Below, piece by piece: positions 19,368 to 43,116 of a DNA stretch of 64,000 nucleotides. Below the pieces are notes generated by a model, which did no database searches, had not been told where the DNA came from, and was given only the letters and a program-made list of their open reading frames with translations. This DNA is from Actinopolyspora biskrensis (lineage in GTDB: Bacteria > Actinomycetota > Actinomycetes > Mycobacteriales > Pseudonocardiaceae), in NCBI RefSeq assembly GCF_013408175.1, contig NZ_JACBYW010000006.1, positions 62,001 to 126,000 of the forward strand, written 5' to 3'. Numbering within the stretch: position 1 is the first letter of the stretch; the number at the start of each line of letters is the position of its first letter. The position numbers and the translations under genes were made by a program.

Positions 19368-19502
19368 CGGCTCGACGCGGTGGCCCGGGCCGTTGCGGCC
19401 CGTGGCCTCCACCCACGAGTCCGCACCGCGACGGCTCGGGCGGAACGGTTCCCGAAACGCTTCGTTAGCACGCCGGTAACACCCGGCCCCCAGGATGTCC
19501 GC

Positions 19503-21464: not shown

Positions 21465-22940
21465 TCACGACACCAGGACGTTCTCGAACTGCCAGGGGTC
21501 GTCTCTCCCCTCTTCCGGGTCCTCCCCGAGCGAGTCGTCCCCGTGGGCCAGCGGGGTCCACTCGCTCCTCGTGGACGGGCACTTGCCCAGGTACGGCTCG
21601 GCGGCCCCGAGCACCTCCTCGTGGTCGAGGTCGTCCGGCACGCACAGCCCCCTGCCCGGGTTCCGCAGTATCCACCGCAGCGCGCCGAGCGCGGAGGCCG
21701 CCACCTGGAGCGTCGTGGCGTTCTGGCCGGGAACCAGCGATCGCGCCTGTTCGATGTCGAGCTGACTGCCCGTCCACCACGCGTTGAGGTCGTGTCCGAG
21801 CAGCAGCGCGCCGAGCTCGTCCATCCCCTCGACGATCTCGTCGCCCATGATCCGCTGGCTCGACTGCATCCGGTAGCCCTGCATCCGGCACTCGTGCAGC
21901 GAGGCCAGTCCGGCGTCGCTCGGCAGGTAGGCGAAGTGCACCGTCGGCCGGTAGCGCACCCGTCCCTCCGGAGAACGCACGGTCAGGTGTCGTCCGATCG
22001 TGTAGGTCTCCCCGTGGCTGATCATCAGCCCCAGCATCGGCCCGGTGGAGGGCACCCAGGAGCGCACCCAGGTGCTCATCCCCGTCCGCTCGAGATAGAT
22101 CTGGTTGCCCGGACCGCTGTCGTGCGTGACGGCGCGTGGCGGGAGCTTCCGCTCGTGGGTCCCCCAGCCCAGTTCGGCCGGAGCGGTCCCCTCCTCGTAG
22201 AACCCCTTGACGGACCAGGTGTTGACGAACTCGTCCACCCGCTTCGGGAGCCGCCCCGTCTGGGTGTCCCGCTCGGAGATGTGGATCGACTTCGTCCCCG
22301 TTTCCATGGCCAGTTCCGCGTACTCGCCCTCCGCGAGGGCCGTCCGCAGCCGGTCGCGCCTACCGGGTTCCAGCCGCCGCTGCCCCAGCCGGTCCTCCTC
22401 GAGCAGCGCGCTCGCCACGTCCCGCAGCCCGCGCTTGGTGAGGTGGCTGACCAGTCCGGGGTTCGCCCCGTGCTCGACCACGGTGGTGGGACCGCTCTCG
22501 TCGAGTTCTTCCGCGAGCTCGTGGAGCCGGGCATGCCTGCGGTAGGTGGTCCGGTCCACCGTCGCCGTCGCGGGGTCCCCGTTGGAGTCCCACGTCTCGA
22601 TCGAGGTGTCCAGGTAGTGCACCCCGTGCGAGTGGCACCACTCGACCAGCTCGCAGGAGTCGATGTCCCAGGTGAGGTTGATCAGTACGTCCCCACCGGA
22701 CAGTTGCCCGCCCAGGAACTCCGCGAAGTTCTCCCGGGTGATCCGGTGTCTCAGGTAGCGCGCTCCGGCCTCCAGAGCCGGTTCGGCGCCGGAGGGCCGG
22801 TCGACGAAGTCCACGATCGTCAGCCGTCGGAAGTCCATGTCGAGGTGTCTGAGCAGCAGCGGCTGCAGGCACCGGGACACCGCCCCGCACCCGAGCAACA
22901 GCACACGTCCGGTGAATTCGACACGCCATCCGGTTTCCAT
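21465..22940 (-). CDS. Homospermidine synthase-like protein (saccharopine dehydrogenase fold)
   Basis: This 491-residue protein has an N-terminal Rossmann fold (GRVLLLGCGAVSRCLQPLLL) and motifs of the homospermidine synthase family: NLTWDIDS, YLDTSIETW, HGANPGLVSH and later WVPSTGPMLG. Homospermidine synthase makes homospermidine from putrescine and spermidine with NAD recycling. Length fits the bacterial enzyme. It lies 205 bases downstream of the monooxygenase that ends the aminobenzoate operon and on the same strand, so it might belong to that cluster, but it could equally be an independent polyamine gene. Confidence 0.75.
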   Translation of the reverse strand: METGWRVEFTGRVLLLGCGAVSRCLQPLLLRHLDMDFRRLTIVDFVDRPSGAEPALEAGARYLRHRITRENFAEFLGGQLSGGDVLINLTWDIDSCELVEWCHSHGVHYLDTSIETWDSNGDPATATVDRTTYRRHARLHELAEELDESGPTTVVEHGANPGLVSHLTKRGLRDVASALLEEDRLGQRRLEPGRRDRLRTALAEGEYAELAMETGTKSIHISERDTQTGRLPKRVDEFVNTWSVKGFYEEGTAPAELGWGTHERKLPPRAVTHDSGPGNQIYLERTGMSTWVRSWVPSTGPMLGLMISHGETYTIGRHLTVRSPEGRVRYRPTVHFAYLPSDAGLASLHECRMQGYRMQSSQRIMGDEIVEGMDELGALLLGHDLNAWWTGSQLDIEQARSLVPGQNATTLQVAASALGALRWILRNPGRGLCVPDDLDHEEVLGAAEPYLGKCPSTRSEWTPLAHGDDSLGEDPEEGRDDPWQFENVLVS

Positions 22941-23145
22941 GTTCCAACACGTACCGGTGAGAACACGGTTCGGCCACAGCACGGTGACAAGAAGGACCGA
23001 TCAGCGTAGTGCCGCGCCCGGGGCGGGGGCGGCGGTCCGGCCAGGGGCCCGGTCCGGTCCGCCGCGAGGGCCGCATCGAGCGGCTCCCCCGAAGCCCTCG
23101 TGCGCCCCTCCGATCCCGCGGAGGACTTCCGGTTCCGGATCCGAC

Positions 23146-24333
23146 TCAGGTCAGCGCCGGATCACCGACCCCGGCACCGTGCAACCAGGCCACCTCGTCG
23201 TGGAGCTGCTCCGGTGAGAGACCGCGGAGCCGCGCGTTGCGTTCCACCGCTGCTTCTCCTGCCGGGTGGTACAGCACCCGCCCCATTTCACGGGAGACGA
23301 ACTGGGCGCGCGCGGTACGGGGAGAACGACGCCCGTTGAACTCCTCGAACCGCTCCGGCACGTCCTCTGCCGAGCAGGACAGCGTCCCGCCGAGCACCAC
23401 GGCGTCCTCCAACGCCATGCACGCCCCCTGCGCCGCGTACTGCAGCATCGGATGCGCCGCGTCACCCAGCAGCAGAACCCGGCCCTCCGCCCAGCGCTCG
23501 ACCGGGTCGCGGTCGCAGAGCACCCAGGTTCTCCACTCGGACCCGAGCTCCAGCAACCGGCGGGCCCCGTGCACGAACTCGGGGAACTCCGACAACACCG
23601 GATCACGGTCCACGGGTTCGCCCACGACCTCCTCCGAGGCGTCGTCGTCCCTGGTGACCGCCAGGTTGAGCAGGTCACCACCCCCGATCGGGTAATGCAC
23701 GAAGTGGCACTTCGGCCCGGCCCACAGGGTGACCGAGTTCCAGCGGAGCTCGGCCGGCACCTCCTCCATCGGAACCACCGAGCGGTAGATGGTGTGCCCG
23801 GAGATCCGCGGTGGGCCGTCGCCCACCAGCTGAGCGCGCACGGAGGAGCGGATGCCGTCCGCTCCGATCAACGCCGAGCAGGTTATCCGCCGACCGTCCT
23901 CCAGCACGGCCACGACACCGCCGGTGCCGTGGTGTTCGTACCCGGCCACGGCGGCGCCGCTCCACAGCTCGACGGAGTCCGCGGCGCGGCAGGCCTCGAG
24001 CAGCGGGCGGTAGACGTCGATGCGGTGCACCACGGCGTAGGGGTTGCCGAACCGCTCCCGGTAGGCACCGGTCACCGGCATGCTGGCCACGTTCTCCCCC
24101 GTGGTTCCGTCCATGAAGCACAGCTCGTCTATGTGGACGGCCAGTTCCCGCACCCGGTCACCGACCCCGAGCCGATCGAGCGCGTGGAAGGCGTTGGGCC
24201 CCAGCTGTATCCCGGCACCGAGTTCGGTGAACTTCTCCCTGCGTTCCAGCACGAGCACTTCGTGCCCCTGTTCCGATGCGGCGAGAGCGGCGGCCAAGCC
24301 ACCGATTCCGCCACCGGCGACGACAATGTACAC
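23146..24333 (-). CDS. Class A flavin monooxygenase, 3-hydroxybenzoate 6-hydroxylase-like
   Basis: This 395-residue single-component FAD hydroxylase has FAD motif GGGIGGLAAA at the start, the NADPH/FAD region IGADGIRSSVR, and LLLGDAAHPMLQYAAQGACMA near residue 295. The segment GPKCHFVHYPIGGGDLLN resembles 3-hydroxybenzoate 6-hydroxylase and salicylate hydroxylases. Those enzymes hydroxylate a phenol para to its hydroxyl or with loss of carboxylate. It is the last gene of the phzC-SDR-phzD-phzE operon, so 3-hydroxyanthranilate or its amide is a likely substrate (inference). GTG at 24333 starts directly at the flavin fold. Confidence 0.85.
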   Translation of the reverse strand: MYIVVAGGGIGGLAAALAASEQGHEVLVLERREKFTELGAGIQLGPNAFHALDRLGVGDRVRELAVHIDELCFMDGTTGENVASMPVTGAYRERFGNPYAVVHRIDVYRPLLEACRAADSVELWSGAAVAGYEHHGTGGVVAVLEDGRRITCSALIGADGIRSSVRAQLVGDGPPRISGHTIYRSVVPMEEVPAELRWNSVTLWAGPKCHFVHYPIGGGDLLNLAVTRDDDASEEVVGEPVDRDPVLSEFPEFVHGARRLLELGSEWRTWVLCDRDPVERWAEGRVLLLGDAAHPMLQYAAQGACMALEDAVVLGGTLSCSAEDVPERFEEFNGRRSPRTARAQFVSREMGRVLYHPAGEAAVERNARLRGLSPEQLHDEVAWLHGAGVGDPALT

Positions 24334-24463
24334 GTCACACAGTCCTTTTCCGATTCGTCGACATCGATCGACCGGTTCGTGCGGAGGGGCTCGAAAAGCA
24401 CCTCCGAACGAACCGGGAATCACCGGGAGACCCGAAGACGGCCTCCGGAAGAGACCCGAGGGG

Positions 24464-24793
24464 TCAGGGAACGACGGCCGCGCCGCCCTGTTCGGCCAGG
24501 CCGTGGATCCCTTCCACGACGGCCTCCACGTCGAACTCGTAGCGCTCGGTCGGCGAGTAACCGATCAGCTCGGCCGCACCGGAGGGCATCGCGGCCTCGG
24601 CGGCCGCGTCCGCCGATTCCCACAGGAGCACCGCGCCCCAGCGATCGGCCCCCCGATCGGATATCCAGAACTTCAGCACCAGCCCGTGAACCCCGGAGAA
24701 GCGCCGCGCCGCTCCGTCGTTCAGGTACTCACCCAGGGAATCGATGGTCTGTTCGGAGTACCTCAGGTCCCACCAGACGACGACCGCCCGCAT
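24464..24793 (-). CDS. YdhR-like small monooxygenase-fold protein
   Basis: The 109-residue protein has the ferredoxin-like dimeric alpha/beta barrel pattern: VVVWWDLRYSE at the start, then GVHGLVLKFWISD and AVLLWESADAA. This matches the YdhR/antibiotic-biosynthesis-monooxygenase superfamily. Such cofactor-free proteins can oxidise quinol-type substrates, though YdhR itself is uncharacterised. Its ATG shares one base with the phzE stop (TGATG), so it is translationally coupled to phzE, and the flavin monooxygenase follows. Involvement in aromatic oxidation is inferred from this context. Confidence 0.65.
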   Translation of the reverse strand: MRAVVVWWDLRYSEQTIDSLGEYLNDGAARRFSGVHGLVLKFWISDRGADRWGAVLLWESADAAAEAAMPSGAAELIGYSPTERYEFDVEAVVEGIHGLAEQGGAAVVP

Positions 24794-26694
24794 CAGAGCA
24801 ACACCCCGCTCGTCATCTCGCGGATGATCCGCGGCCCGGCGACCGTCAGCAGGGACTCGGCGTGGAACTGCATCGACGCGAGTCCGGGACCGCGCAGGGC
24901 GTGCACCTCTCCGGTACCGGGGTCCCTGCTCACCTCCACCACGCCCACGCCGCGGAGCTCGATCTTGTCCTCTGCGGAGACGGCGGCGAACGTGTTGTAG
25001 AAGCCCACGCGCTCCGCCGCGCCGAACAGGTCGATCTCCCGTTGCGTCCCCTGGTTCGGGCGTTCCCGGCGAACGACCGGCAACCCCAGCAGCGAACTCA
25101 GGACCTGGTGGCTCAGGCAGACGGCGACGAAGGGCTTCCGCTCGGAGAGCAGCCGCCCGGTCGTCTCGCGCAGTTTCCCGATCTTGGGAGATCCCCCGTC
25201 GTTGGGATCACCGGGACCGGGCCCCATGACCACGAGATCGTGGTGCTCGGTCGAGTGGTTCTCGTCGAAGCGGCGCACGGTCACCTCGAGGCCGAGCGAG
25301 CGGAGCTGGTGCCCCAGCATCGCGGTGAAAGTGTCCTCGGCGTCGACGACCAGCACCCTCAACCCGGCCAGCTCGGGAGCGGACCGGGCGCGTTCCTCCT
25401 CCTCGCTCAGCCAGAACGTCGCTATCGAATCGTTGCGCCGCCGCAGAGCGCCGCGCACGCTCGGGTGCTCGTCGAACCCCCTGCCGGTCCCGGAGCGCAA
25501 CGCGGAGAGCATCCCGGCCGCCTTCGCCCTGGTCTCGGCGACCTCGGAGACCGGGTCCGAGTCGCGGACCAGCGTAGCTCCGACACCGATGCGCAACAGG
25601 CCGTCCGGGGTTATCTCCGCGGCCCGGATGAGGATGGACGAGTCCATGGTGCGTCCGCCGCGCTCGTCCCGGCCGATCAACGCCGCGACCCCGCTGTAGT
25701 ACCCGCGTCCCGCCGGTTCGTAGCGGCGAACCACCCGGGCCGCGCTTTCCAGCGGACTGCCGGTCACCGTCGGCGCGAACATCGTCTCCCGCAGGATCTC
25801 GCGCACGTCGCGAACGCTGTGCCCGTGGACGAAGTACTCGGTGTGCGCCAGCCGCGCCATCTCCTTCAGATGCGGCCCCGTCACACGGCAGTCCCTGTCG
25901 CAGACACGACTCATCATCTTGAGCTCCTCGTCGACGACCATGTACAGCTCGTCGACTTCCTTGGAGTCGTCGAGGAACTCCAGGATCCCCGCCAGGCTCG
26001 CCCCCGACTCCGGATAGCGGTAAGTGCCGCTTATGGGGTTCATGACCGCGTGCTCGTCACGCAGGCTGATGTGGCGTTCCGGCGAGGCGCCGACGAACGT
26101 GCGCTGCCCGGTGTGGATCAGGTACGTCCAGTAGGCTCCCGATTCGCGTTCCAACAACCTGCGGAAGACCGTCAACGCACGTGCGGTCGAGTAGTCCGCG
26201 ACCTCCGCGAGGAAGGAGCGCCCCAGGACGAAGTTCGCCCCCGCACCGTTGCCGATCTCGTCCTCGACGATCCGCCGCACCGTGTCCGCGTACTCCCCGT
26301 CGTCCAGGTCGAAGCGCTCGTCACGCAGGTCGATCCCGGTGTCGGGCACGCGTTCGAGGACATCCGCGGTGGACAGCCGCCGCTGTCCGCTGACGCTGAG
26401 CGCGATGAGCGGCGCCCCGTCCTGCGGGGCCTCGAACTCCTTCTCCGCGAGCTGCCGGTACGGGACCACCGTCAGCAGCTCGTGCCTGTCTCCCCCTGCC
26501 TCCTCGGTGGTGCCCGGCAGGTCCGGGACCGGCAGATCGGCCAGGTTCTCCACCGTGGTGACGGATCCGGTGAGCATTTCCACCACGTCCGCACCCGTCG
26601 TCTCCGGGCGGTGCAACAGCGCGAAGGGCCGGGGGTCGCCTTCCAGGACCGCCCCCAGCGGGTCGGCGTTGCCGGGCTCTCGTCCCTCGTTCAT
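24793..26694 (-). CDS. phzE: 2-amino-2-desoxyisochorismate synthase (PhzE-type)
   Basis: This 633-residue fusion makes ADIC from chorismate and glutamine. The N-terminal two thirds form the anthranilate synthase-type chorismate domain ([25 protein letters not shown]-like region, [15 protein letters not shown]). The C-terminal third is a class I glutamine amidotransferase with nucleophile Cys in AVCLSHQVL and HAE in MQFHAES. The fusion and length are those of PhzE rather than TrpE/TrpG. ATG at 26694 overlaps the phzD stop as ATGA, which decides the start. It is followed by a coupled YdhR-like gene. Confidence 0.93.
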
Positions 26695-27347
26695 CGCACG
26701 ACCTCCCCGACACCCAGTTCGGCCACGACCGAGGCGGTCGTGGTGACCACGGCACAGCGGCCGGCCGCGTACTCCAGCGCCATCCGGTGGTGGTCGGCGG
26801 AGAAGTCCGCCACCGCGTCGGCGACGAGGAACGGTTGGACGTCGTTGGTGAAGGCGTCCAAGGCCGTCACGAGCACACCGACGTGCGCGTAGACCCCGCA
26901 CAGGATCAGCTGGTCGCGTCCCGACTCCCTGAGCCGCGCGAGCAGGTCCGTCGCGAAGAAGGCGCTGTAGCGCCACTTGGTGAGAACCCAGTCGCTCCCG
27001 CCGGGCGACAGCCGGGCGACGAGTTCGCGGTCCCCGGGCTCGGCGCGCATCCCCCTGCCCCAGAAATCGCGGAGCAGCCCACGTTGCTCGGTCGTCATGT
27101 CACCCGGCTGCGCCGTGTAGGCCACGGGAACCCCGAGATCCGCACAACGCCGACGCAGCGCGACCGCGTTGTCGACCAGGTTCCCTCCAGGCTCCCGCTC
27201 CTCCGGGAACGGCTTGAGAAAGTACTCCTGCATGTCGTGGACCAGCAGGACCGCACGATCGGGATCGGGCTTCCACCGCGCGGTGTTCACTGGGAGCTCT
27301 TCTTCTCCGGGCATCGAATAGGGCGGCACGGACGGAATTCCCGCCAT
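26691..27347 (-). CDS. phzD: Isochorismatase PhzD
   Basis: This 218-residue enzyme hydrolyses ADIC to trans-2,3-dihydro-3-hydroxyanthranilate and pyruvate. The sequence is strongly PhzD-like throughout: [13 protein letters not shown] with the catalytic Asp, [29 protein letters not shown] with the Lys, and CGVYAHVG in place of the cysteine used by some relatives. Family length is 207-220. The stop overlaps the phzE start. Gene order phzC-SDR-phzD-phzE differs from Pseudomonas phzABCDEFG, since an SDR sits where phzF-type chemistry would be expected. Confidence 0.95.
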
Positions 27348-27465
27348 AATAACTCCCTTTTTCCCGAGAAAGGATTCTTCGAAAAATTCCCCGCGCGAAC
27401 GGAGTCCGCGCGTCTGGGCTGCACGTACCGACGAACGTGGAGCACCGGCGCTGGAGCGGCCGGGG

Positions 27466-28236
27466 TCAGGAGCCGAGCGCCGCTCCGCCGTCGACGGTCA
27501 ACGAGTGCATGGTGATGTGCGCGGCCTCGTCCCCCAGCAGGAAGGCCACGGCGTCGGCGACGTCCTCCGGGGTGGCCAGTTTCCCCAGCGGGATACCGAC
27601 CCGGTAGCGCTCGGGAACCCCGGCTATCGTGGCGTCACGCCCCCCGGAGTCCTCCCACATCGAACTGAGCATGGGGGTGTCCGTGGAACCGGGAGCCACC
27701 ACGTTGCACCGGACACCGTGCTCGGCCACCTCCAGTCCGAGCGTTTTGGTGATCATCGTCGCCGCCGCCTTCGACGCGGCATAGGCCCCCATGTCCGCCC
27801 GAGGGGTCGTAGAGGCGTTGGAGGACACCGTCACGATCGCGCCCCCGCCCCTGGAAACCATCCGGTCGGACACGGCCCTCGACACGAGGAAGACCCCCGC
27901 CGCGTTGACGGCGAAGGTCGTCGACCAGTCCTCGTCAGTGAGCCGACGAACCTCTCCCATGCGCAACACCCCGGCCGCGTTGACCAGGAAGTCGATCGGC
28001 CCGAGACGGGATTCGACCTCCTCGACCAGTCCCCGCACCTCGGTGCTCGAGGACACGTCGGCTGGGAAGAACGCGACTCCTTCCCCGGAGGCGGCGCTTT
28101 CCGCGCCGGCCCCGCTCAGTCGCCCCTCGTCCCGGTCGACAGCGGCCACACGCGCCCCCCGCGCACCGAGCTCACGGACCACCGCTCTCCCTATTCCACC
28201 CGCCGCTCCGGTGACGAGCGCTACTCTGTTCCGCAA
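27466..28236 (-). CDS. SDR, probable dihydro-3-hydroxyanthranilate dehydrogenase (DhbA-like)
   Basis: This 256-residue classical SDR has cofactor motif GAAGGIG near residue 10, VNAAGVL as NAG motif, a catalytic Ser in VTVSSNAST and YAASK. It resembles 2,3-dihydro-2,3-dihydroxybenzoate dehydrogenases (DhbA/EntA). Directly beside phzD it would oxidise the dihydro product to aromatic 3-hydroxyanthranilate, as in benzoxazole and related pathways (inference from context). The start is best placed at TTG 28236, nine bases after CGGAGG; longer forms run into phzC. The gap to phzD is 118 bases. Confidence 0.82.
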
Positions 28237-28280
28237 TTCGCACAACCTCCGTCGGACGTCTTCGCCGAGGCGGGACACGG

Positions 28281-29498
28281 TCAGCACCAGGCGGACACGA
28301 CCCGCAGGGTCTGTTCGGGATTGAGCCGGGGATCGCAGAGACTCGTGTACCCGCGCCCCGCCCGGTCCGGGGCCGAACCGTCGGTGACGCACTCGGTGAC
28401 GTCGTCCGGACTCGTTTCCAGGTGCAGGCCTCCCGCGACTCCGCCCTCCTCCTCGACCAGACGGCGGAAGCTCCGGACCTCGCTCATCACCGAGTCCACC
28501 AACCGGGTCTTCGACCCGTCCGCGCGGCTCACCGTGTTTCCGTGCATGGGGTCGCTCATCCAGATCACCGGGTGCCCCTCGGCACGCACCGCGCGGACCA
28601 GCGGCGGCAGCCCCTCCTCGATCACGCCCTCCCCCATGCGCGCGATCAGCGTGAGCCTGCCCGGGACGCGTTCCGGGTCGAGGGCCTCGCAGAGCTCCAC
28701 GACCTCCTCGACGGTCGCCTTGGGGCCGACCTTGCAGGCCACGGGATTGAACACCTGGGAAAGCAGCGCCACGTGAGCACCGTCCACCTGCCGGGTGCGC
28801 TCGCCGATCCAGGGCCAGTGCGTCGAGCCGAGCACCGGAAGCCCGGTCGGATCACGCCTGGTCAACGGCAACTCGTAGTCCAGCAGCAGTGCTTCGTGGC
28901 TGGTCCACACGGGCGGGTCTATGAGCGAGCCGGTGGTCGCCCCGGGCCAGCCGAGCAGGTTCATCACGTCCCGCGCTGCTCGGTATCCCCCGAGCATCCT
29001 CTCGGGGTCGGGCGTCCGGTCCTCTTCGGAGGGTTCGAGGGCGTTGACCATGTGCCCGCGGTAGACGGGCAGCCGCCTGCCCCCGACCACTTCGGTGGGG
29101 CTGGAGCGGGGTTTGCCGAACTGCCCCGCGATCCTGCCGACGCGGAGCACGGGTTCCCTGGTGCTCATCCGGAGAACACCCGCCATGGAGTCGAGCATCC
29201 CCGTCCTGCGTGCGACGTGCTCCGGGGTGCACTCGGCCGGGTCCTCGGCGCAGTCCCCCGCCTGCACGATCCGCATCTTGCCCGCGGCCACGTCGGCCAG
29301 CAGTCCACGCAGGATCCGGACGTCCACGGAGTCGACGAGGGCCGGTAATCGTGACAACCGCTCACCGACCCCGGAAACGTGCTCGGGGTCGGGCCAGTCC
29401 GGCTGTTGCTCAGCGGTGCGGGAAAGCACCGCCTCGACGAGGGACCCCGCACCGGTGTGCCCGGTTTCCAGGGGAGCCGATTTCGACGGGGAAACCAT
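28281..29498 (-). CDS. phzC: DAHP synthase, class II (PhzC-type)
   Basis: This 405-residue plant-like (type II) 3-deoxy-arabino-heptulosonate-7-phosphate synthase has the metal-site motif IVQAGDCAED near residue 75, then VGRIAGQFGKPRSSP, WIGERTRQ and KVGPKA, and DPMHGNT in the C-terminal part. It commits erythrose 4-phosphate and PEP to the shikimate pathway. In secondary clusters it bypasses feedback control. The inner ATG at 29498 is chosen; the in-frame stretch before it is Cys/Phe-rich and unlike the family. It is the first gene of the phzC-phzE operon, preceded by an AT-richer promoter region. Confidence 0.92.
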   Translation of the reverse strand: MVSPSKSAPLETGHTGAGSLVEAVLSRTAEQQPDWPDPEHVSGVGERLSRLPALVDSVDVRILRGLLADVAAGKMRIVQAGDCAEDPAECTPEHVARRTGMLDSMAGVLRMSTREPVLRVGRIAGQFGKPRSSPTEVVGGRRLPVYRGHMVNALEPSEEDRTPDPERMLGGYRAARDVMNLLGWPGATTGSLIDPPVWTSHEALLLDYELPLTRRDPTGLPVLGSTHWPWIGERTRQVDGAHVALLSQVFNPVACKVGPKATVEEVVELCEALDPERVPGRLTLIARMGEGVIEEGLPPLVRAVRAEGHPVIWMSDPMHGNTVSRADGSKTRLVDSVMSEVRSFRRLVEEEGGVAGGLHLETSPDDVTECVTDGSAPDRAGRGYTSLCDPRLNPEQTLRVVSAWC

Positions 29499-29584
29499 TT
29501 TCGACCACCTCGAAAAAGAACGAATCAGGAAACAACACAATCCATGATGACCGACCCGCTCCGGTTGGAACAATTCGAACCGGC

Positions 29585-29595
29585 CACTTTGTCAC
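29585..29595 (-). promoter_or_regulatory. GTGACAAAGTG motif upstream of phzC
   Basis: The 11-mer GTGACAAAGTG (minus strand) lies 87 bases upstream of phzC, inside the 305-base gap between phzC and the asparagine synthetase-like gene. The identical 11-mer lies upstream of the FAD oxidase operon at 34992-35002. It could be a -35-like element (GTGACA) or a regulator site. The gap also holds a terminator at 29707-29735 and otherwise no gene. Confidence 0.5.
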
Positions 29596-29706
29596 GTGGA
29601 ACCACGCGGAAGTCGGGAACGAAAAACAAATCCGAGCGCCCCGCGAAAAAACAGAAAAGAATCCTCGCACCACCGCGCGCGGACGGAGGGAGTCGTCGCG
29701 CCGAAA

Positions 29707-29735
29707 ATTCGACCCGCCGGCGCGGCGGGTCGAAT
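29707..29735 (-). terminator. Terminator hairpin after the asparagine synthetase-like gene
   Basis: A perfect 13-base stem (ATTCGACCCGCCG with its complement) and a three-base loop lie about 70 bases after the stop of the amidotransferase gene. It separates the upstream oxidase-SDR-AtaL-AsnB unit from the phzC unit. Confidence 0.75.
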
Positions 29736-29803
29736 CGGTTGGGGTACTACCGGTTCACGCGTCCCCGGAGCGGCGAACCCGCTCCGGAAGGACCGCGCGT
29801 CCT

Positions 29804-31657
29804 TCACAGCTCGACACGAACACCGTACTCGGAAACCCAGCGGTCGAACTCGGCCAACCGCTCCAGGACGGCGCGCGCACCCCACGGACCACCGACGCCG
29901 TAGGTGCCTACCGGCTCGTCGAGCAGCGCGCGGATTCCGGACTCGGAAACCAGGTCCAGCACGGGGGACCCCTCGGTGATCAGCCCTTCGACCCTTTCCC
30001 GCAACGCCAGCTCGTAATCGAGGTCCTGCGTGGACGGATAGGGGGTCTTCTTCCTGTCCAGCACCGAGTCGGGCAGGATCCCGCGCATCGCCTCCCGCAG
30101 CAGGCTCTTCTCCCTGCCGTCGAAGTTCTTCATCTCCCACGGCGTGTTGTAGACGTACTCCACGAGCCTGTGGTCGGTGAAGGGCACTCGGACCTCCAGC
30201 CCCGCGGCCATGCTGATTCGGTCCTTCCTGTCCAGCAGGAAGTTCTCCCAGCGGGTCAGGTTGAGGTAGGTCAGCTCGCGCATGCGCTCCCGGGTTCCCG
30301 TCTCGCCCTCCAGGCGCGGGACCTCCTCCAGCGCCTGCGCGTAGCGCTGCTTGACGTAGTCCTCCAGTCCCAGAGAGTCCCAGAGCCCGACCGCGCGCAG
30401 CGCACCGATCCCGCCCGCTTTCTCGAAGGGGTGGTGCCACGGGAAGGTGTCGGCCTCCACCGCCTCCTCGTCGTGGAACCAGGTGTAACCGCCGAACAGC
30501 TCGTCCGCCGCCTCACCGGACAGGGCCACCGTCATGCGCTTCCGCAGTTCGCGGCAGAGCACCAGCAGCGAGTACTCCATGTCCCCCGTGGAGACCGGGA
30601 GGTCCTGGGCACGCAACACCGACTCGCGCACTTCCGGATCGAGCACGTCCTGGTTGTCCAGTTCGACGACGACGTGCTCGGCCCCCACTCTCTCGGCGAC
30701 CTCGACGGCGAACGGAGTGTCGGGGTCGGCCCACTGCACGTTGGAGGTGAAGCTCTCGGAGAGCCCCTTGAAATCGACGGAGAAGGCCTCCACCGGGTGC
30801 TCGTGCCCCCGCTCGCGCAGGGCCCTCGCCGCCAGGGCGGTGACCGCGCTGGAGTCCATGCCCCCGGACAGCAGCGTGCCGACGGTGACGTCGGCCACGA
30901 GCTGGCGGTCCACTATGTCCTCCAGCAGCTCCCGCACCCTGCTGATCGTCGTCTCCAGGTCGTCGGTGTGCGGCCGAGCGCGCAGCTCCCAGTACGGTGA
31001 GGTGCGCCGGCCGTCGCGGCCGAAACGCACGACGGTGGCGGGACGCACCTCGTGCATACCGCGGAACACGGCGTGGCCCGGTGTCTTGACGATGCCGAAG
31101 ACCTCGCGCAGGCCGTCGGCGTCGACCACGGCCTCGGCCTCGGGGTGGGCGAGCACCGCCTTGGGCTCGGATCCGAAGAGGACGCCGTCCGAGGTGGGGT
31201 AGTAGTACAGCGGTTTGACACCCATCCTGTCCCGCACCAGCAGCAGTTCCTCGCTCCGCGGGTCCCAGACGGCCATCGCGTAGATCCCGTTGAGGCGTTC
31301 CGCGAACCCCTCACCCCACTCCAGGTAGGCGCGCAGCACGACTTCGGTGTCGGTCGCCGTCCGGAACTCGTGCCCGAGCTCCCGCAGCTCCTCCCACAGT
31401 TCGCGGTAGTTGTAGACCTCCCCGGTGTAACTGATCACGGGTTGCGAGTCGTCGCCCTCGACGGCGCGCATGGGCTGACTGCCGTTCTCCGGGTCGATGA
31501 TGGAGAGCCTGCGATGTCCGAGCAACGCGCGCGAGGAGATCCACGTTCCGTGCTCGTCGGGACCGCGGCACTCCATGGTCCCGGTCATCTCGGATATCGT
31601 TTCCGCTCGTCCGGTCAGGTCACGCTGATAACTCACCCATCCGGTAAGTCCGCACAT
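29804..31657 (-). CDS. Asparagine synthetase-like glutamine amidotransferase (PhzH-like role)
   Basis: This 617-residue protein has the N-terminal nucleophile Cys at position 2 (MCGLTGW), glutaminase motifs RRLSIIDPENGSQPM and YTGEVYNYREL, and the ATP-pyrophosphatase loop SGGMDSSAV near residue 270. It is a full AsnB architecture. Asparagine is one possible product, but in phenazine loci an AsnB homologue (PhzH, about 610 residues) amidates the ring carboxylate. Here too it sits beside phzC-phzE. Conversion of 3-hydroxyanthranilate or a product to a carboxamide is therefore the preferred inference. ATG at 31657 is fixed by the catalytic Cys. Confidence 0.85.
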   Translation of the reverse strand: MCGLTGWVSYQRDLTGRAETISEMTGTMECRGPDEHGTWISSRALLGHRRLSIIDPENGSQPMRAVEGDDSQPVISYTGEVYNYRELWEELRELGHEFRTATDTEVVLRAYLEWGEGFAERLNGIYAMAVWDPRSEELLLVRDRMGVKPLYYYPTSDGVLFGSEPKAVLAHPEAEAVVDADGLREVFGIVKTPGHAVFRGMHEVRPATVVRFGRDGRRTSPYWELRARPHTDDLETTISRVRELLEDIVDRQLVADVTVGTLLSGGMDSSAVTALAARALRERGHEHPVEAFSVDFKGLSESFTSNVQWADPDTPFAVEVAERVGAEHVVVELDNQDVLDPEVRESVLRAQDLPVSTGDMEYSLLVLCRELRKRMTVALSGEAADELFGGYTWFHDEEAVEADTFPWHHPFEKAGGIGALRAVGLWDSLGLEDYVKQRYAQALEEVPRLEGETGTRERMRELTYLNLTRWENFLLDRKDRISMAAGLEVRVPFTDHRLVEYVYNTPWEMKNFDGREKSLLREAMRGILPDSVLDRKKTPYPSTQDLDYELALRERVEGLITEGSPVLDLVSESGIRALLDEPVGTYGVGGPWGARAVLERLAEFDRWVSEYGVRVEL

Positions 31658-31732
31658 AGTATAGGCCTCTCACGAGTAATGAACCCGAGCCGAGCGAATC
31701 GACCTCGGAGAACGACGGCAGTGGGCACCGCC

Positions 31733-32197
31733 TCACTTCACGGTCGTGCAGTGTTCGACCGTGGCGTGCGCGATGGTCAGCAGGGACCCCGCGAACAGCG
31801 CGGACGTCTCCTCGAGGAACCCCGGCTCGCGCATCGCCTTCTTGTTTCCGCTCTCGGAGAGCGTGACTTCCAGGGTGAACAGGAAACCACTCCCCGACTC
31901 GGAGACCTGGTTCACCACGCGGGCCACGTCCAGCGGCTCGGTCACCTCGAAAACGAAGCGCCCGTTCGCCCCGTAGGTGACCCGTTCCACGACGCGTTCA
32001 CCGCTGCTGTACAGGATCTCGCGGAGAATTCCGTCCGAATAGCGCTCACGAACGTCGCAGGACGTGATGTAGGGAATGTAGGCGGCGGGGTTCTCCGCCT
32101 TGTCGCGCATGCTCGCCAGGAGTGATTCCCGGTTCAGCTCCACGTCCGTCCGGCCGTCGACGGCCTCCAACGGCACTGTCCAACTCAGTACGGTCAT
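31733..32197 (-). CDS. AtaL-like SRPBCC protein (DUF1857)
   Basis: This 154-residue protein looks like the DUF1857/AtaL-like branch of the START/SRPBCC superfamily. It begins with a strand TVLSWTVPLEAV, has a middle SCDVRERYSDGILREI, then repeated strands (FVFEVTEPLDVAR, GFLFTLEVTL) and a long C-terminal helix. This fold makes a deep hydrophobic pocket and often binds or cyclises aromatic intermediates, but AtaL-like proteins are poorly characterised. It lies between the AsnB-like gene (75 bases) and an SDR (81 bases), so it is probably co-transcribed. Confidence 0.65.
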   Translation of the reverse strand: MTVLSWTVPLEAVDGRTDVELNRESLLASMRDKAENPAAYIPYITSCDVRERYSDGILREILYSSGERVVERVTYGANGRFVFEVTEPLDVARVVNQVSESGSGFLFTLEVTLSESGNKKAMREPGFLEETSALFAGSLLTIAHATVEHCTTVK

Positions 32198-32278
32198 CGC
32201 AAACAGCCCCCGTCCCAGAGGAATCAGAGAAAAGGGCTCGGTACCCGCTCCGCGGGCGAGTACCGAGCCGGAACGAGC

Positions 32279-33040
32279 TCAGGCGCTGGCGCCGCCGTCG
32301 ACCACCATGTCGTGCCCGACGACGAAGCTGGCCTCGTCCGAGGCGAGCCAGAGCACGGCCGAGACGATCTCCCCCGGGTCCGCCAGCCTTCCCGCGGGAA
32401 TCCCGCCGGTGAGCCTGGCGGCGCGGTCCTCCTCCGACTCCCCGGGCAGGAAGGTCATCTTGGTCTCGGAGGCGCCGGGGCTGACGACGTTGATCCGGAT
32501 GCCGTCCTCGATGTGGTCCCTGGCCGCCGAACGGCTCATGTTGCTGACACCGGCCTTGGAGGCGACGTACGGGGCCACACCGCCGAACCGGGCGTGGTCG
32601 CCGATGTTGGAACCGGCGTTGACGATCGCCCCGCCACCGTTCTCCCTCATGTGCTCGATCTCGTACTTCATGCACAGCGCCACACCGGTGAGGTTGATGG
32701 CGATCACCGAGTGCCAGGTCTTCTCGTCCGTGTCCCCGAACGCCCCCGGCATCGGGAAGATGCCGGCGTTGTTGTGCGCGATGTCCAGGGAACCGTGCCG
32801 CTGCACCGCGGTGGCGACGCCGTTCTTCACCGACTCGGAGTCGGTGACGTCGACGTCTACCGCGCTGGCTTTCCCACCTTTTTCCTCGATCAGCTTGACG
32901 GTCTGCGCCGCTGTCTCGGCGTTGTGGTCGGCGACGACCACCGTGGCTCCCTCGGCGGCGAAGGCCAGCGCGCTCCTGCGGCCGATCCCGGACCCCGCGC
33001 CCGTGACGAAGGCGACTTTCCCATCAAAACGTGCGGTCAT
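32279..33040 (-). CDS. Short-chain dehydrogenase/reductase
   Basis: This 253-residue classical SDR has GAGSGIG cofactor motif at residues 13-19, HNNAGIF as NAG motif, a catalytic Ser in NAGSNIG and YVASK. A conserved Asp after the second strand (VVADHNAET) points to NAD rather than NADP. It is the second SDR of the locus and lies between the oxidase and the AtaL-like gene. It may oxidise or reduce a ring alcohol or quinone intermediate; the role cannot be fixed from sequence. Confidence 0.82.
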   Translation of the reverse strand: MTARFDGKVAFVTGAGSGIGRRSALAFAAEGATVVVADHNAETAAQTVKLIEEKGGKASAVDVDVTDSESVKNGVATAVQRHGSLDIAHNNAGIFPMPGAFGDTDEKTWHSVIAINLTGVALCMKYEIEHMRENGGGAIVNAGSNIGDHARFGGVAPYVASKAGVSNMSRSAARDHIEDGIRINVVSPGASETKMTFLPGESEEDRAARLTGGIPAGRLADPGEIVSAVLWLASDEASFVVGHDMVVDGGASA

Positions 33041-33144
33041 CGTTTGCTCTCCTGCTTCGTTTCGGTGACACGCTCACCTGTGGACACCGCCCGGACCACT
33101 TCCGTGACCGGCCCGGGCGGCCTTACCGCACTCGGATCCGCCCG

Positions 33145-34827
33145 CTAGGCGGAAGGCAGTCCGATCGACTGCGAGTGGCGGAAGAAATTGTTCGGATCGT
33201 ATTTCTTCTTGATCCGCTGCAACTCGGGGTAGTTCTGCTTGTAGTAGAGCTCGTGCCAGGGGATTCCCGACCCGTTGTAAGTGGGATCGGTTATGTCCAT
33301 GTCGGGGTAGTTTATGTAGCACCCGTCCGTCTGGGAGTTCGGAACCGGATATCCCCCGCTGTCCGCGAACACACCGTTGTACAGGGCCCTGCACCAGTCC
33401 ACGTTGGCCGAGTCCTCGGCCGCGTCGGACCAGAAGCTCTCGACCAGCATCTTGAACGCGGAATCACGCTGCGCCGAAGCCGTGGACTCCCGGGGAACGG
33501 AGTTTATCCGCCCACCGTAGGAGAGCAGCACCATTATGGAGGCCGGGTTGGTGTGATCGGACCGGGTCAGCTGTTCGTACATGGTCGCGATCTGGGCATC
33601 GGAGAACCCATTCTTGAGATACCCGGACTTGTACTCCCCACGCATGGTCGGATCGTTCAACGTCGGGTTGTTGGTGCCGAGCAGCCGGGCGGCGCGGTAC
33701 CAGGGCAAGCGCATCGGCTGGTAGAGCTCCGGAGCGGGGCTCATCTCCCCGACCGGTTCGGACATGGGCCGGGTCTGCACGCTCGTTCCGTCGAACAGCT
33801 TCGACAGGTAGTCCCGCAGCAGGGCATCGGCGTCGGGGTCCGTCCCGTCGACCACGGTCAGCAGCCCGGCACTTCCGTTGGCCTTGTGATTGACCATCAG
33901 AAAACTGGACAGCGAGGTACCCGCCGCGTCGGGCGAGCTGTTGTTCGCGAACCAGGTTCCGTAGTTGCGCACCATGCGCGTGAAGCTCGCCTCGTCCAGC
34001 TCCGACCAGGAAACGGACACCGCGTTCACCAGCAGGGTCTCCGGGGGGCGGGGGAGCAGTGCCCCCGGATCGGTGCCCGCGGCACCGGGTGATCTGAACC
34101 AGTAGCGGGTGATCACGCCGAAGTTTCCGCCACCACCACCGGTGTGGGCCCACCACAGGTCACGGTTCGGGTCGTCCGCATCCCTGGTGGCGACGACGGG
34201 TTTCGCCTTTCCGCTCGCGTCCACGGTGACCACCTCCACCGCGTGGAGGTGATCGACCACCAGCCCGTGCTTCCTGGACAGGAGTCCGTAACCACCACCG
34301 CTGACGTGTCCGCCGACGCCGACGGAGAAGCACATCCCTCCCGGAACGGTGACGCCCCAGATCTTGAACAGGGTCTCGTACAGCTCCAGCAGGGTGGCTC
34401 CCGCCTCCACCGCGAACGCCGACCGCTGCTGATCGAAGTGGACGTTCTTCATCTCGCTGAGGTTGATCACGACGTCGACGTCGGGGTTGTGCACGAAATC
34501 GGCGTAGCAGTGCCCCCCGCCCTGGACCGTGACGCGTTTGTTCGCGTTCACGGCCTCCTGGACGGCGCCGACCACCTGGTCGGTGGTCGCGGCCATGCGG
34601 ACGTGTTCGGGCTTGCTCCTCCAGCGCTGGTTCATCCCCCTGGTCAGGTCCGGGTAGCGCAGGTCGTCCGGGCCGATTTTGACCGGATCGAACGGTGGGG
34701 ACGCCACGCCCGCTTCGGCTGCCGCCGCGCTTTTCGAACCGGCCGTCCCCGCCGTGGCGGCGATCCCGGTCGCCGTCAGGGCACCCGCCGCTCCGGCGAG
34801 CACTCTTCTCCGATTTAAACCACTCAT
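33145..34827 (-). CDS. Secreted berberine-bridge-type FAD oxidase with Tat signal
   Basis: This 560-residue flavoprotein has a twin-arginine signal peptide (NRRRVLAG, then an Ala/Gly-rich hydrophobic stretch), so it is exported folded. The FAD-binding PCMH domain has GGGHCYADF, with the His for covalent FAD, and GGMCFSVGVGGHVSGGGYG, with the Cys for the second flavin bond. The C-terminal BBE motif reads KKKYDPNNFF. Bicovalent BBE oxidases use oxygen to oxidise phenols, amines or sugars. Location outside the cell suggests the last oxidation happens after export. ATG at 34827 follows GAGGG; it opens the oxidase-SDR-AtaL-AsnB operon. Confidence 0.88.
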   Translation of the reverse strand: MSGLNRRRVLAGAAGALTATGIAATAGTAGSKSAAAAEAGVASPPFDPVKIGPDDLRYPDLTRGMNQRWRSKPEHVRMAATTDQVVGAVQEAVNANKRVTVQGGGHCYADFVHNPDVDVVINLSEMKNVHFDQQRSAFAVEAGATLLELYETLFKIWGVTVPGGMCFSVGVGGHVSGGGYGLLSRKHGLVVDHLHAVEVVTVDASGKAKPVVATRDADDPNRDLWWAHTGGGGGNFGVITRYWFRSPGAAGTDPGALLPRPPETLLVNAVSVSWSELDEASFTRMVRNYGTWFANNSSPDAAGTSLSSFLMVNHKANGSAGLLTVVDGTDPDADALLRDYLSKLFDGTSVQTRPMSEPVGEMSPAPELYQPMRLPWYRAARLLGTNNPTLNDPTMRGEYKSGYLKNGFSDAQIATMYEQLTRSDHTNPASIMVLLSYGGRINSVPRESTASAQRDSAFKMLVESFWSDAAEDSANVDWCRALYNGVFADSGGYPVPNSQTDGCYINYPDMDITDPTYNGSGIPWHELYYKQNYPELQRIKKKYDPNNFFRHSQSIGLPSA

Positions 34828-34991
34828 CCGAATACCCTCACCCGCTAAGAACCAGATTCGACAGAAAGAATGTGGAGCTCTTCGCGCTCCCCTCATTCCC
34901 CCAGAGGCAAGTCGCCGGCGGATCCGTCGTTCCCCCGGAGATCCGACACACATCATGCGAACCCGGCTCACGTCTCGACAACCGGAGCTCC

Positions 34992-35002
34992 GCACTTTGT
35001 CA
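34992..35002 (-). promoter_or_regulatory. GTGACAAAGTG motif upstream of the FAD oxidase operon
   Basis: A second exact copy of the 11-mer found upstream of phzC lies in the 290-base divergent region between the FAD oxidase and the MFS exporter, 165 bases before the oxidase start. In both copies the motif is preceded by A(C/T). Confidence 0.5.
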
Positions 35003-35117
35003 CATCGGCGGATCGGCGGAGCGGACCTGACGAAATTGTGCGTCCTCGTTGCCGCGGCCACCAGAGTTGCGCACACTCCTCCCGGAAATCAATCGTCCGG
35101 AATTGTCGAGGTGTTCG

Positions 35118-36569
35118 ATGGCTGTGGAGTCCCGAGACGCCACCGCGTCCGAGAGGGAAGGGCGGCACGAAGCCCCGCCACGTACCAGAGCGGCCTTTTC
35201 ACTGCTGGCCACCGTGCAGATCGTGCTCATCATGGCGATCACCATGCTCTCGGTGGCCCTGCCGAGGATCGAAGCCGAGCTCGGCCTCTCGACGAGCCGG
35301 TTGACCCTGGTCAACGCCGCCTACGGCCTGTCCTTCAGTGGCCTGCTGCTGCTCGGTGGTCGCGCCGCGGACCTGTACGGACGGCGTCGGCTGTTCACCG
35401 TGGGAGTCGCTGTCTTCGGCGCGGCCTCGCTGGCCGCGGGAATCGCTCCCGGGTTCCGGACGCTGCTGGTCTCCCGCTTTCTGCAGGGAGCGGGGGCCGC
35501 GCTGGCGGCCCCGGCGGCCATGGCACTCGTCGGATCCGTCTTCCCCGAGCCGAACCGCCGTTCCCGTGCCATGGCGGTGTGGGGTGGGCTGTCCCCCATG
35601 GGCGCGGCGGTCGGCACCCTGGCCTCGGGGGCCGTGTCCACCTGGTTCTCCTGGCGCTGGACGTTCGCCATCCCCGCGGTCGTGGCGGTCGTCGCGCTGG
35701 CCCTGACCCGCGCGCTGCTTCCGGAGGGCTCGGCGGACACTCGTTCACGCCTCGACGTCAAGGGAGCGGTACTGGCGACAGCGGGTTTGACCGCGCTCAG
35801 CTACGGTCTGGTCCACGCGGCGGAGAGTCCCTGGGGTTCCCCGCCGGTGCTCGGCCCGGTCCTCCTCGGCGTGCTGCTGCTGGCACTGTTCGTCGTCCTG
35901 GAACTGCGGACTCCGGACCCGCTGCTGCCGATGGACTTCCTCCGCTCGGCCCACCGCGCTGCGGGACTGTGGGTGATCCTGGCCGGAGCGACCGGGATAT
36001 CGACCATGTTCATGCTGATGTCGCTGTACTTTCAACAGGTCGCCGGAATGTCCCCGCTGCTCACCGCGGCCGCTTTCCTGCCCTTCAGCGTTACCCTGGC
36101 CGTCGTCGGAACGACCGCGGCCCACCTGGTCAGGTGGTTCGGCGCGCGCAACGTCGTGGTCGCCGGATCGTTGCTGGCCGCGTCCGGACTCTGGCTGCTC
36201 GGCCGTGCCGAGGCCGACAGCCCCTACGCCGGTGCTCTGCTGGCCGGCCTCCTTGTGCTGCCCGTGGGGATCAGCATGATGTTCTCCGGGGGCACGGTGA
36301 CGGTCTTCTCCCGCACACGCGACGATCGTGCGGGACTCGCGGGCAGCATGGTCAACACCGCGATGGAAACGGGCCCCACGGCCGGTTTGGCGCTGCTCGT
36401 GTCCCTGGCCACCGCGCACACCAACTCGTTGGCGCTCGGAGGCGCAGGACAACGGGCGGCCGAGACGGCCGGGTACGCCTTCGCCTTCGACGTCGGTGCG
36501 GTGGCCCTGGCCTGCACGGCCGCGCTGGCGCTGTGGCTGCTCCGGGAGCCGCGGCGGCGAGACGGGTGA
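35118..36569 (+). CDS. MFS drug exporter, DHA2 type
   Basis: This 483-residue protein has about 14 hydrophobic segments, fitting the 14-helix DHA2 branch. The loop 2-3 motif GGRAADLYGRRR (motif A), LPRIEAELGLS in helix 1, and GAGAALAAPAA, which resembles motif C of antiporters, are present. It would export a small molecule in exchange for protons. Divergent position next to the secreted oxidase makes it the likely exporter for the cluster product. ATG at 35118 (after CGAGGTG) is chosen at the start of a hydrophilic leader of about 30 residues before helix 1. Confidence 0.85.
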   Translation: MAVESRDATASEREGRHEAPPRTRAAFSLLATVQIVLIMAITMLSVALPRIEAELGLSTSRLTLVNAAYGLSFSGLLLLGGRAADLYGRRRLFTVGVAVFGAASLAAGIAPGFRTLLVSRFLQGAGAALAAPAAMALVGSVFPEPNRRSRAMAVWGGLSPMGAAVGTLASGAVSTWFSWRWTFAIPAVVAVVALALTRALLPEGSADTRSRLDVKGAVLATAGLTALSYGLVHAAESPWGSPPVLGPVLLGVLLLALFVVLELRTPDPLLPMDFLRSAHRAAGLWVILAGATGISTMFMLMSLYFQQVAGMSPLLTAAAFLPFSVTLAVVGTTAAHLVRWFGARNVVVAGSLLAASGLWLLGRAEADSPYAGALLAGLLVLPVGISMMFSGGTVTVFSRTRDDRAGLAGSMVNTAMETGPTAGLALLVSLATAHTNSLALGGAGQRAAETAGYAFAFDVGAVALACTAALALWLLREPRRRDG

Positions 36570-36754
36570 GGACACGACTCCGGTTCCGGAGCGCGGTACC
36601 GGACCCACCGCAACTGACATCACGCGACGTTGTCCGAAACCGGGGAAGAAAATTGTCCGCAGCTTTCCGGAGCAGGAATCGAGCGCGAGAACACCCCGGG
36701 AGGACGCCGAACGAGAACAGCGGGGAGATCACGGCCGAATTCGTCCTCCGGGAC

Positions 36755-36783
36755 TTGACGAAGACAAAAAAGCGTCTTAACGG
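36755..36783 (+). promoter_or_regulatory. Candidate promoter upstream of transaldolase-like gene
   Basis: TTGACG at 36755-36760, a 17-base AT-rich spacer containing an A run, then TAACGG lie about 30 bases before the ATG at 36814. An inverted repeat AAGAC-N8-GTCTT overlaps it. Sequence inference only. Confidence 0.38.
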
Positions 36784-36813
36784 CCTTCGGGGACCCGCCT
36801 ATCATCGGCTCGT

Positions 36814-37803: not shown

Positions 37804-37845
37804 CTCCGTGACGGAGGTTCCCGCCCCCGGAGCACGGCACGTGGT

Positions 37846-38589: not shown

Positions 38590-38840
38590 CCGTTCCCCAC
38601 AGGTTCGAAGTGATGTAGTGCCCCCCAAAAAGATCCCGATGAACAGGATTCCGCAGCGCACAGGGCCACGGAAGGTGACGGGGCTACATTTCTCCCTCCC
38701 CGGTGAGGTGCCGGGCCCCTCACTCGCCCGCGCAAAAACCGGTTCTGTGTCAGGTCGCCGAGTCACTGCGGTCCGGTTCGTCCGAATCGGTTGCTAATCT
38801 TGGTGCTCCACACGGCACGAGACGAGGAGGAACGACACCG

Positions 38841-43090: not shown

Positions 43091-43116
43091 TCCCGCCCTC
43101 GTCGCTGCACACGAAT

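Follow-up and report, generated by a model that had tools for sequence, protein, structure and literature searches.

Paulomycin carries an amino-quinone-like ring, ring A, for which an origin from chorismate has been proposed (PMC4425429). In Streptomyces paulus, the genes pau17 to pau21 for this ring encode a 3-hydroxybenzoate 6-monooxygenase-type enzyme (3HB6H), PhzE, PhzD, a DhbA-type short-chain dehydrogenase/reductase (SDR), and a 3-deoxy-D-arabino-heptulosonate 7-phosphate (DAHP) synthase; knockout of pau18 abolishes the paulomycins, and Pau17 and Pau27 are ring hydroxylases by proposal rather than by demonstration (PMC4425429). A matching set, plm14 to plm18, is present in S. albus J1074 (PMC4802897). 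Sets comprising PhzC, PhzE, PhzD, and a DhbA-type SDR also serve limazepine (Lim3 to Lim6) and tilivalline (AroX, DhbX, IcmX, and AdsX). Lim6 and Lim5 make 2-amino-2-deoxyisochorismate (ADIC) and dihydro-3-hydroxyanthranilate (DHHA) (PMC5958127), and for tilivalline, mutations in the homologous genes can be overcome with 3-hydroxyanthranilate (PMC5698749). Here we describe a gene cluster with this core in Actinopolyspora biskrensis, on a stretch of 64,000 nucleotides (contig NZ_JACBYW010000006.1, positions 62,001 to 126,000; below, the window) that belongs to contig C6 of the 4.95-Mb, 15-contig genome. The region from 23146 to about 42 kb of the window is a real, coherent biosynthetic gene cluster of 18 to 19 kb. 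Reading its product from its genes, we propose, with a probability of roughly 0.55, that it makes an amino-quinone or amino-hydroquinone carboxamide.

The genes of the window were called, translated, and scanned against Pfam and NCBIfam profile models. In order of transcription, the minus strand carries genes for a berberine bridge enzyme-like (BBE) oxidase, a second SDR (SDR2), an AtaL-like protein, and an AsnB-type amidotransferase, followed by the set phzC-dhbA-phzD-phzE-ydhR-3HB6H. Adjoining them are genes for an exporter, a transaldolase-like protein, and a PucR/GAF regulator on the plus strand and an "IS701 transposase" gene on the minus strand. Profile scans and translations bear out every gene that the original prediction had named, namely, phzC, phzD, phzE, and those for the DhbA-like SDR, the AsnB-like and AtaL-like proteins, the second SDR, and the flavin adenine dinucleotide (FAD) oxidase. 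That prediction did not include ydhR or the transaldolase-like, PucR, and IS701-like genes. The start of phzE lies inside the stop of phzD and the start of ydhR within the stop of phzE, and this sharing of bases implies coupled genes rather than chance open frames. The synteny is seen again in two further Actinopolyspora genomes and in Streptomyces. In the gap separating asnB from phzC, a pattern scan detected no site resembling a promoter and a single one resembling a terminator, where 1.3 would be expected; neither exceeds chance, so the division into two operons is not proved.

Core enzymes and the probable branch to 3-hydroxyanthranilate

All six genes of the core lie on the minus strand. 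The product of phzC (28281 to 29498) is a class-II DAHP synthase by PF01474 (422.6 bits) and scores under the cut-off of TIGR01358, the equivalog model for that class (400.8 versus 614.7 bits). Profile scans and PDB searches identify phzE (24793 to 26694) as encoding an ADIC synthase with chorismate-binding and glutamine amidotransferase parts, and phzD (26691 to 27347) as encoding an isochorismatase-type enzyme for the step from ADIC to DHHA. The single PDB relative of PhzE at an E value of ≤1e-30 is the phenazine enzyme 3r74 (E value, 9.2e-220), the best match of PhzD is phenazine PhzD, 1nf9 (E value, 4.7e-93), and both proteins align end to end with active phenazine enzymes. dhbA (27466 to 28278, with its start at 28278 or 28245) encodes the SDR assigned to the conversion of DHHA to 3-hydroxyanthranilate; its product exceeds the cut-off of TIGR04316 and reaches 336.8 bits against NCBIfam dhbA_paeA (cut-off, 300). 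The PhzE-, PhzD-, and DhbA-type genes together make up the gene content of the chorismate/DHHA route. The step from DHHA to 3-hydroxyanthranilate that the original prediction gave to a DhbA-type SDR is still the best reading, and a chorismate/DHHA route to this acid is described for limazepine and tilivalline.

The same core genes could belong to a phenazine pathway with its missing genes elsewhere, and the genome does hold two PhzF-family genes on other contigs in addition to the phzC, phzD, and phzE of the window. We nevertheless give this explanation next to no probability. A search for phzA/B returned no match in the whole genome, although it detected the copies in 2 of the 10 genomes of the genus (G006 and G008; our working numbers for genomes); no relative of any window gene occurs within 20 kb around either PhzF-family gene; and the DhbA-type SDR would divert DHHA into the 3-hydroxyanthranilate branch. 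The claim that this is not a phenazine cluster therefore stands on phzA/B, absent genome-wide, and on the two PhzF-family genes, neither of which has phz neighbors; phzG was not searched for. A second PhzE-like gene of the genome (contig C1, 52% identity) has no window relative nearby except itself, and the 5 of 11 called genes scanned in its surroundings encode a glycoside hydrolase family 31 protein, a glyoxalase, the PhzE-like protein, a luciferase-like protein, and a methyltransferase.

The most telling gene of the cluster is that for 3HB6H (23146 to 24333; the frame is open to 24423, and the start at 24333 is taken from relatives), which the original prediction had covered only by the word "oxidases." This FAD enzyme passes the NCBIfam equivalog NF006021 for 3-hydroxybenzoate 6-monooxygenase (475.9 bits; cut-off, 459), and its best PDB match is 4bjy, a "probable salicylate monooxygenase" (E value, 6e-65).

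Between phzE and the 3HB6H gene lies ydhR (24464 to 24793), encoding a 109-amino-acid NosA/YdhR-like protein with a dimeric ferredoxin-like fold that scores below the cut-off of PF08803. Its sole PDB sequence relative is NosA (4za1; E value, 2.7e-18), and NosA also ranks first by fold for the model (predicted local distance difference test score [pLDDT], 74.3), with SnoaB, a cofactor-independent oxygenase, in tenth place. NosA reportedly forms a terminal amide by cutting dehydroalanine. Phenazine gene rows elsewhere in the genus also contain a NosA-like gene right after phzE: in G006 (locus L017, 11168 to 11512) it occurs with phzA/B, phzD, phzE, and phzF, and in G008 (L018, 10950 to 11294) with phzD, phzE, and phzA/B. 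Because the gene follows phzE in phenazine operons as well, it may serve some purpose other than forming an amide. A role for YdhR as an obligatory quinone-forming oxygenase was considered and is weakened by the absence of the gene from G002, G009, G014, and G015, by the phenazine-operon copies, and by NosA being its nearest relative.

Added enzymes, relatives, and the proposed product

The added enzymes are likewise encoded on the minus strand. AsnB (29804 to 31657), the proposed carboxamide maker, scores 494.2 bits against TIGR01536 (cut-off, 267.1) and begins with MCG, so that the N-terminal Cys nucleophile is present. The AtaL-like protein (31733 to 32197) passes PF08982 (46.4 bits; cut-off, 27) and has no significant PDB relative by sequence search. 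Its model (pLDDT, 86.2, from five sequences) shows the SRPBCC/aromatase-cyclase fold, and a fold search places the PR10-like protein PA1206 at the top of a list that holds many plant PYR/PYL receptors and also the aromatase/cyclases BexL, StfQ, and ZhuI. SDR2 (32279 to 33040), assigned by profile scans, is 90.5% identical in G002 and G009. The BBE oxidase (33145 to 34827), an exported FAD enzyme of the TamL/AknOx type with a twin-arginine-like leader, was identified by profile scan, translation, and PDB search; its closest solved relatives are TamL, AknOx, 2wdw, CrmK, and GilR. In alignment with TamL (2y08), it retains both the His and the Cys column, which we take to be the double (bicovalent) flavin anchor. 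The exporter of the major facilitator superfamily (MFS; PF07690; 35118 to 36569, plus strand) shares 74 to 78% identity with its counterparts in G002 and G009 and 56 to 57% with those in G012 and G013.

Querying GTDB contigs with AsnB yielded ten loci: six in Streptomyces (S. aurantiogriseus, NRRL F-5135, S. cyaneofuscatus, CB00316, S. griseoruber, and S. longispororuber; 74 to 77% identity), one in A. xinjiangensis (87%), and three others (39 to 52%). All six named Streptomyces strains carry phzE (61 to 66%) on the AsnB contig, no more than about 35 kb away. Among 392 Streptomyces genomes, 16 have AsnB orthologues at 69 to 79% identity (E value, ≤1e-270), three of which overlap with the six named ones. 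In the stretches of 16 to 60 kb read around them, phzE stands beside AsnB in 11 of the 16, and 3HB6H accompanies it in 6 of those 11. Sets like that of the window, with AsnB, AtaL, SDR2, MFS, 3HB6H, and the phz core, number six (A. biskrensis itself, G002, G009, G012, G013, and G332); the BBE gene is absent from the 16-kb contig of G332. In three genomes (G024, G029, and G106), the core is joined by 3HB6H, the NosA-like gene, SDR2, BBE, MFS, and the transaldolase-like, PucR, and IS701-like genes, while neither AsnB nor AtaL was found in the stretch read. Because these three carry the remaining genes without both, AsnB and AtaL look like an addition to a pathway that would make an amino-quinone acid.

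We propose the following pathway, in which the activities of PhzE, PhzD, and the DhbA-type SDR are taken from tested homologues. PhzC would supply the shikimate pathway, PhzE would convert chorismate to ADIC, PhzD would split off pyruvate to give DHHA, and the DhbA-type SDR would aromatize DHHA to 3-hydroxyanthranilate. 3HB6H would then add a hydroxyl group para to the phenolic one, so that the hydroquinone 3,6-dihydroxyanthranilate is formed, and AsnB would turn the carboxyl group into a primary amide; amidation may precede or follow hydroxylation. Oxidation would convert the hydroquinone ring to a quinone, with further changes by SDR2 and the AtaL-like protein. The MFS protein would export the product and the exported TamL/AknOx-type oxidase would complete it outside the membrane, so that the cell would be spared contact with its most reactive form. 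Expression would be under PucR, perhaps jointly with the transposase-like protein.

We favor this reading for several reasons. The DhbA-type SDR, 3HB6H, and AsnB exceed curated cut-offs; PhzE and PhzD are closest to phenazine enzymes in a genome lacking phzA/B; paulomycin ring A has a matching gene order, and its PhzE gene is needed for paulomycin; homologous four-gene sets feed 3-hydroxyanthranilate into tilivalline, and Lim6 and Lim5 make ADIC and DHHA; AsnB orthologues accompany phzE in most of the Streptomyces genomes read and in all those named above; and the oxidase is nearest the TamL/AknOx group in a gene set delimited by a deletion in a sister species (see below). The amidated, oxidized aminophenol or aminoquinone of the original prediction is thus still the best reading of these genes.

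Several points weigh against it. No metabolite or activity is known from the cluster genes, none of the cluster enzymes is a proven quinone-former, and the NosA-like gene is absent from G002 and G009, yet present in true phenazine operons. The nearest solved relative of AsnB, and its sole PDB match at an E value of ≤1e-100, is 7ylz, a "hydroxyamidotransferase" (E value, 2.7e-175), so that a primary amide is not certain. AsnB could instead be a hydroxyamidotransferase and the product a hydroxamate, possibly a metal chelator. We consider this unlikely, as the profile model exceeded is that of plain AsnB and the annotated cluster genes include no recognized amine N-hydroxylase or hydroxylamine supplier.

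A further point concerns 3HB6H, whose PDB relatives include decarboxylating hydroxylases, among them the decarboxylative vanillate 1-hydroxylase and a protein named 4-hydroxybenzoate decarboxylase. An enzyme that decarboxylated while hydroxylating would leave an aminohydroquinone without a carboxyl group, presumably resembling the epoxyquinols of the LL-C10037alpha type, and AsnB would have to use another acid. This too has a low probability in our view: 3HB6H passes the equivalog cut-off for the nondecarboxylating 3-hydroxybenzoate 6-monooxygenase, the gene set suggests no alternative carboxylic acid substrate, and Pau17 is drawn as a simple hydroxylase in its authors' proposal (PMC4425429).

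The distribution in Streptomyces also counts on the negative side. In the stretches read, 5 of the 16 AsnB-carrying genomes lack phzE (G045, G051, G063, G085, and G147), the first three of them lacking any phz gene and the last two having 3HB6H near AsnB, and 5 of the 11 phzE-positive genomes lack 3HB6H, so that the substrate of AsnB may be something other than a quinone precursor. Those five clusters, with AsnB beside phzCDE-dhbA, would suit a product made by coupling 3-hydroxyanthranilamide, such as a phenoxazinone-type dimer, as would the tyrosinase and multicopper oxidase genes of the relative in G010; 3HB6H would then work at a later stage or on a different substrate. The window itself has no phenol-coupling copper enzyme among its annotated cluster genes, however, and all six window-like sets retain 3HB6H, and we regard a coupling product as a minor possibility beside the amino-quinone carboxamide.

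Some of the Streptomyces loci differ in layout. In G147, AsnB and 3HB6H lie at 960169 to 962019 of contig C1 and phzC-dhbA-phzD-phzE with a transposase relative about 2.4 Mb away, near 3.34 Mb, possibly a split cluster. G010 (loci L058 to L060) and G011 (L061 to L063) combine the phz core, AsnB, and 3HB6H with DeoC/type II dehydroquinate synthase, aspartokinase, tyrosinase, and other genes. The larger G010 cluster adds the DeoC/dehydroquinate synthase, tyrosinase, and multicopper oxidase genes and has most of its genes in common with G011; from their gene content, both likely represent a two-aminophenol pathway. In S. cyaneofuscatus, a 5-enolpyruvylshikimate-3-phosphate synthase gene (L038, 16791 to 18320) lies between the NosA-like gene and 3HB6H.

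Natural bounds, neighbors, and the transposase-like gene

A PhzE relative at an E value of ≤1e-60 is present in 7 of the 10 Actinopolyspora genomes, and the full cluster occupies the site in three (A. biskrensis, G002, and G009); the site was read in all but G001, G007, and G008. In the sister genome G003, whose flanks are 91.6 to 93.1% identical, blastn of the window against locus L140 shows that 23012 to 41894, a cluster stretch of 18.9 kb, is missing and that about 0.83 kb of different sequence stands in its place (L140, 4270 to 5104); of the IS701-like gene, no more than roughly the N-terminal 63 residues survive. This natural deletion sets the cluster bounds. The genes listed for 23146 to 35118 in the original prediction are retained, and its right edge moves out to about 41.9 kb. 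The saccharopine dehydrogenase-like (21465 to 22982), GNAT (19380 to 20894), and LysR (42197 to 43123) genes fall outside, and we set each aside as a cluster member, since all three are kept in the cluster-less G003; the position of the first also shifts between species. Elsewhere in the genus, G006 keeps MFS2-LysR-saccharopine dehydrogenase-IS701-PucR-transaldolase at the site with no biosynthetic genes, and G004 and G005 keep SDR2, MFS, the IS701-like gene, and the flanks, with nothing more. Farther along the window, two tRNA genes (55318 to 55390 and 58015 to 58087), 2.7 kb apart, have equal Rfam scores of 70.5 bits.

These losses raise the question of whether the cluster is decaying or silent and makes nothing any longer, a view to which the remnants in G004 and G005, the deletion in G003, the transposase-like gene interrupted by an in-frame stop in four species, and a transaldolase-like protein without its lysine would all lend themselves. 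We judge it very unlikely, because all ten biosynthetic frames of the window are open, nine of the genes are matched in G002 and G009 by relatives of 69 to 91% identity (ydhR being absent there), and PhzE and PhzD align over their full lengths with active enzymes.

The transaldolase-like protein (36814 to 37803, plus strand; PF00923) has Arg in the column that we take to be that of the Schiff-base Lys. The residue there is Gln in G002 and G009 and Lys in all four aligned Streptomyces copies. A role in supplying erythrose 4-phosphate is weakened by this loss in three Actinopolyspora copies.

The regulator (38841 to 40799, plus strand; frame open to 38703) is of the GAF/PucR type (PF13556, PF17853, and PF13185), and its 3' tail is overlapped, tail to tail, by the IS701-like gene (40775 to 42133, minus strand; start uncertain). 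The IS701-like protein matches PF13546 and scores 260 bits against NCBIfam NF033540 (cut-off, 150), but it has Ser in place of the first catalytic Asp of the DDE triad, the column being set by the Asp of LDETG, a motif in a transposase remnant that this genome also contains. Of the three catalytic acids, this Asp alone was compared. The column holds S, R, Q, E, or H in all 14 aligned cluster-linked copies and R, Q, H, or K in all 19 further Streptomyces copies, whose regions were chosen from the top matches of a 150-genome search (93 genomes match at an E value of ≤1e-30). Weaker matches (about 33 to 37%, often several per genome), outside the alignment, may be true transposases. The copies of G001, G004, G005, and G007 have one in-frame TGA each.

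A PucR relative lies within 400 bp of the IS701-like copy in 24 of 32 regions and within 6 kb in 28, with none in 4, and the two genes converge tail to tail in 23 of these 24 close pairs; the regions were selected by similarity to AsnB or to the IS701-like protein, so these pairing rates are not unbiased. In the 19 regions selected by the IS701-like protein, the stretch read contains at least one phz core gene in 10 and none in 9 (G019, G030, G040, G053, G056, G061, G066, G090, and G156; 11.6 kb read for G061 and 20 kb for G090), and the pair is therefore not exclusive to the proposed amino-quinone pathway. Amid ordinary genes, the ten neighbors scanned in G019 feature one for a BTAD-type regulator and one of the anthrone-oxygenase family. 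As a tentative suggestion, which we hold less firmly than the product assignment, the "IS701 transposase" beside this and related clusters could be a domesticated, catalytically dead transposase that forms a two-gene control module of secondary metabolism with PucR, in a family of amino-quinone carboxamide clusters without an assigned product in the literature searched, and that escapes annotation by scoring above the transposase model. Titles listed from the open-licence literature held nothing on point on transposase-derived regulators. A conserved IS701-like protein without its catalytic Asp beside PucR poses the question of transposases turned regulators of antibiotic clusters.

Comparison with known systems

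The original prediction pointed to benzoxazoles and LL-C10037alpha, but paulomycin ring A, with its like gene order, is closer. The claim that the combination may be undescribed divides in the same way. The phz-3HB6H core is known from paulomycin, and the addition of AsnB, the AtaL-like protein, SDR, and BBE, which recurs in other actinomycetes, may be new: no product for it was located in the open-licence literature, which misses most subscription journals, so that "undescribed" is not proved. Literature on 3-hydroxyanthranilate clusters, aminobenzoquinone carboxamides, 3HB6H with AsnB, and aminophenoxazinones likewise gave no matching cluster beyond paulomycin.

Enaminomycins, KT 8110, and LL-C10037alpha are small amino or acylamino epoxyquinols and epoxyquinones, and sarubicin A is an amino-quinone carboxamide; no gene cluster for any of these was found in the literature searched. 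Sarubicin has a C-linked sugar, whereas no genes for such a sugar are annotated in the window cluster. If our reading is right, the family would offer a compact way of making amino-quinone carboxamides, whose ring type had no gene cluster in that literature, and a place to examine directly how the amide of amino-quinones is formed, and an AsnB orthologue adjoining phzE would be a simple genome-mining marker for the family.

Individual proteins compare as follows. The IS701-like protein passes the curated model of IS701 family transposases and differs from them in lacking the first catalytic Asp and in its usual pairing with PucR. NosA, from nosiheptide biosynthesis, is both the only PDB sequence relative and the best fold match of the 109-amino-acid protein, but the window gene follows phzE, as in true phenazine operons. 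Among solved structures, TamL, AknOx, CrmK, and GilR stand nearest to the BBE oxidase, which keeps the His and Cys flavin-anchor columns in its alignment with TamL.

At the level of pathways, limazepine and tilivalline have the same PhzC, PhzE, PhzD, and DhbA-type SDR set as the window but pass their acid to a nonribosomal peptide synthetase, whereas none is annotated in the window, where a hydroxylase and AsnB follow. Relative to paulomycin, no Pau27-like second hydroxylase, C-glycosyltransferase, or sugar gene was seen among the scanned cluster genes of the window, and the main text of the paulomycin paper contains none of the words "asparagine," "amidotransferase," and "amide" (PMC4425429). 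The order of the window is the same as that of pau17 to pau21, compared through the gene table of that paper by order and annotation rather than by protein sequences or strands, and it departs from it in having a NosA-like gene inside that order and AsnB, an AtaL-like protein, SDR2, and an exported BBE oxidase added to it.

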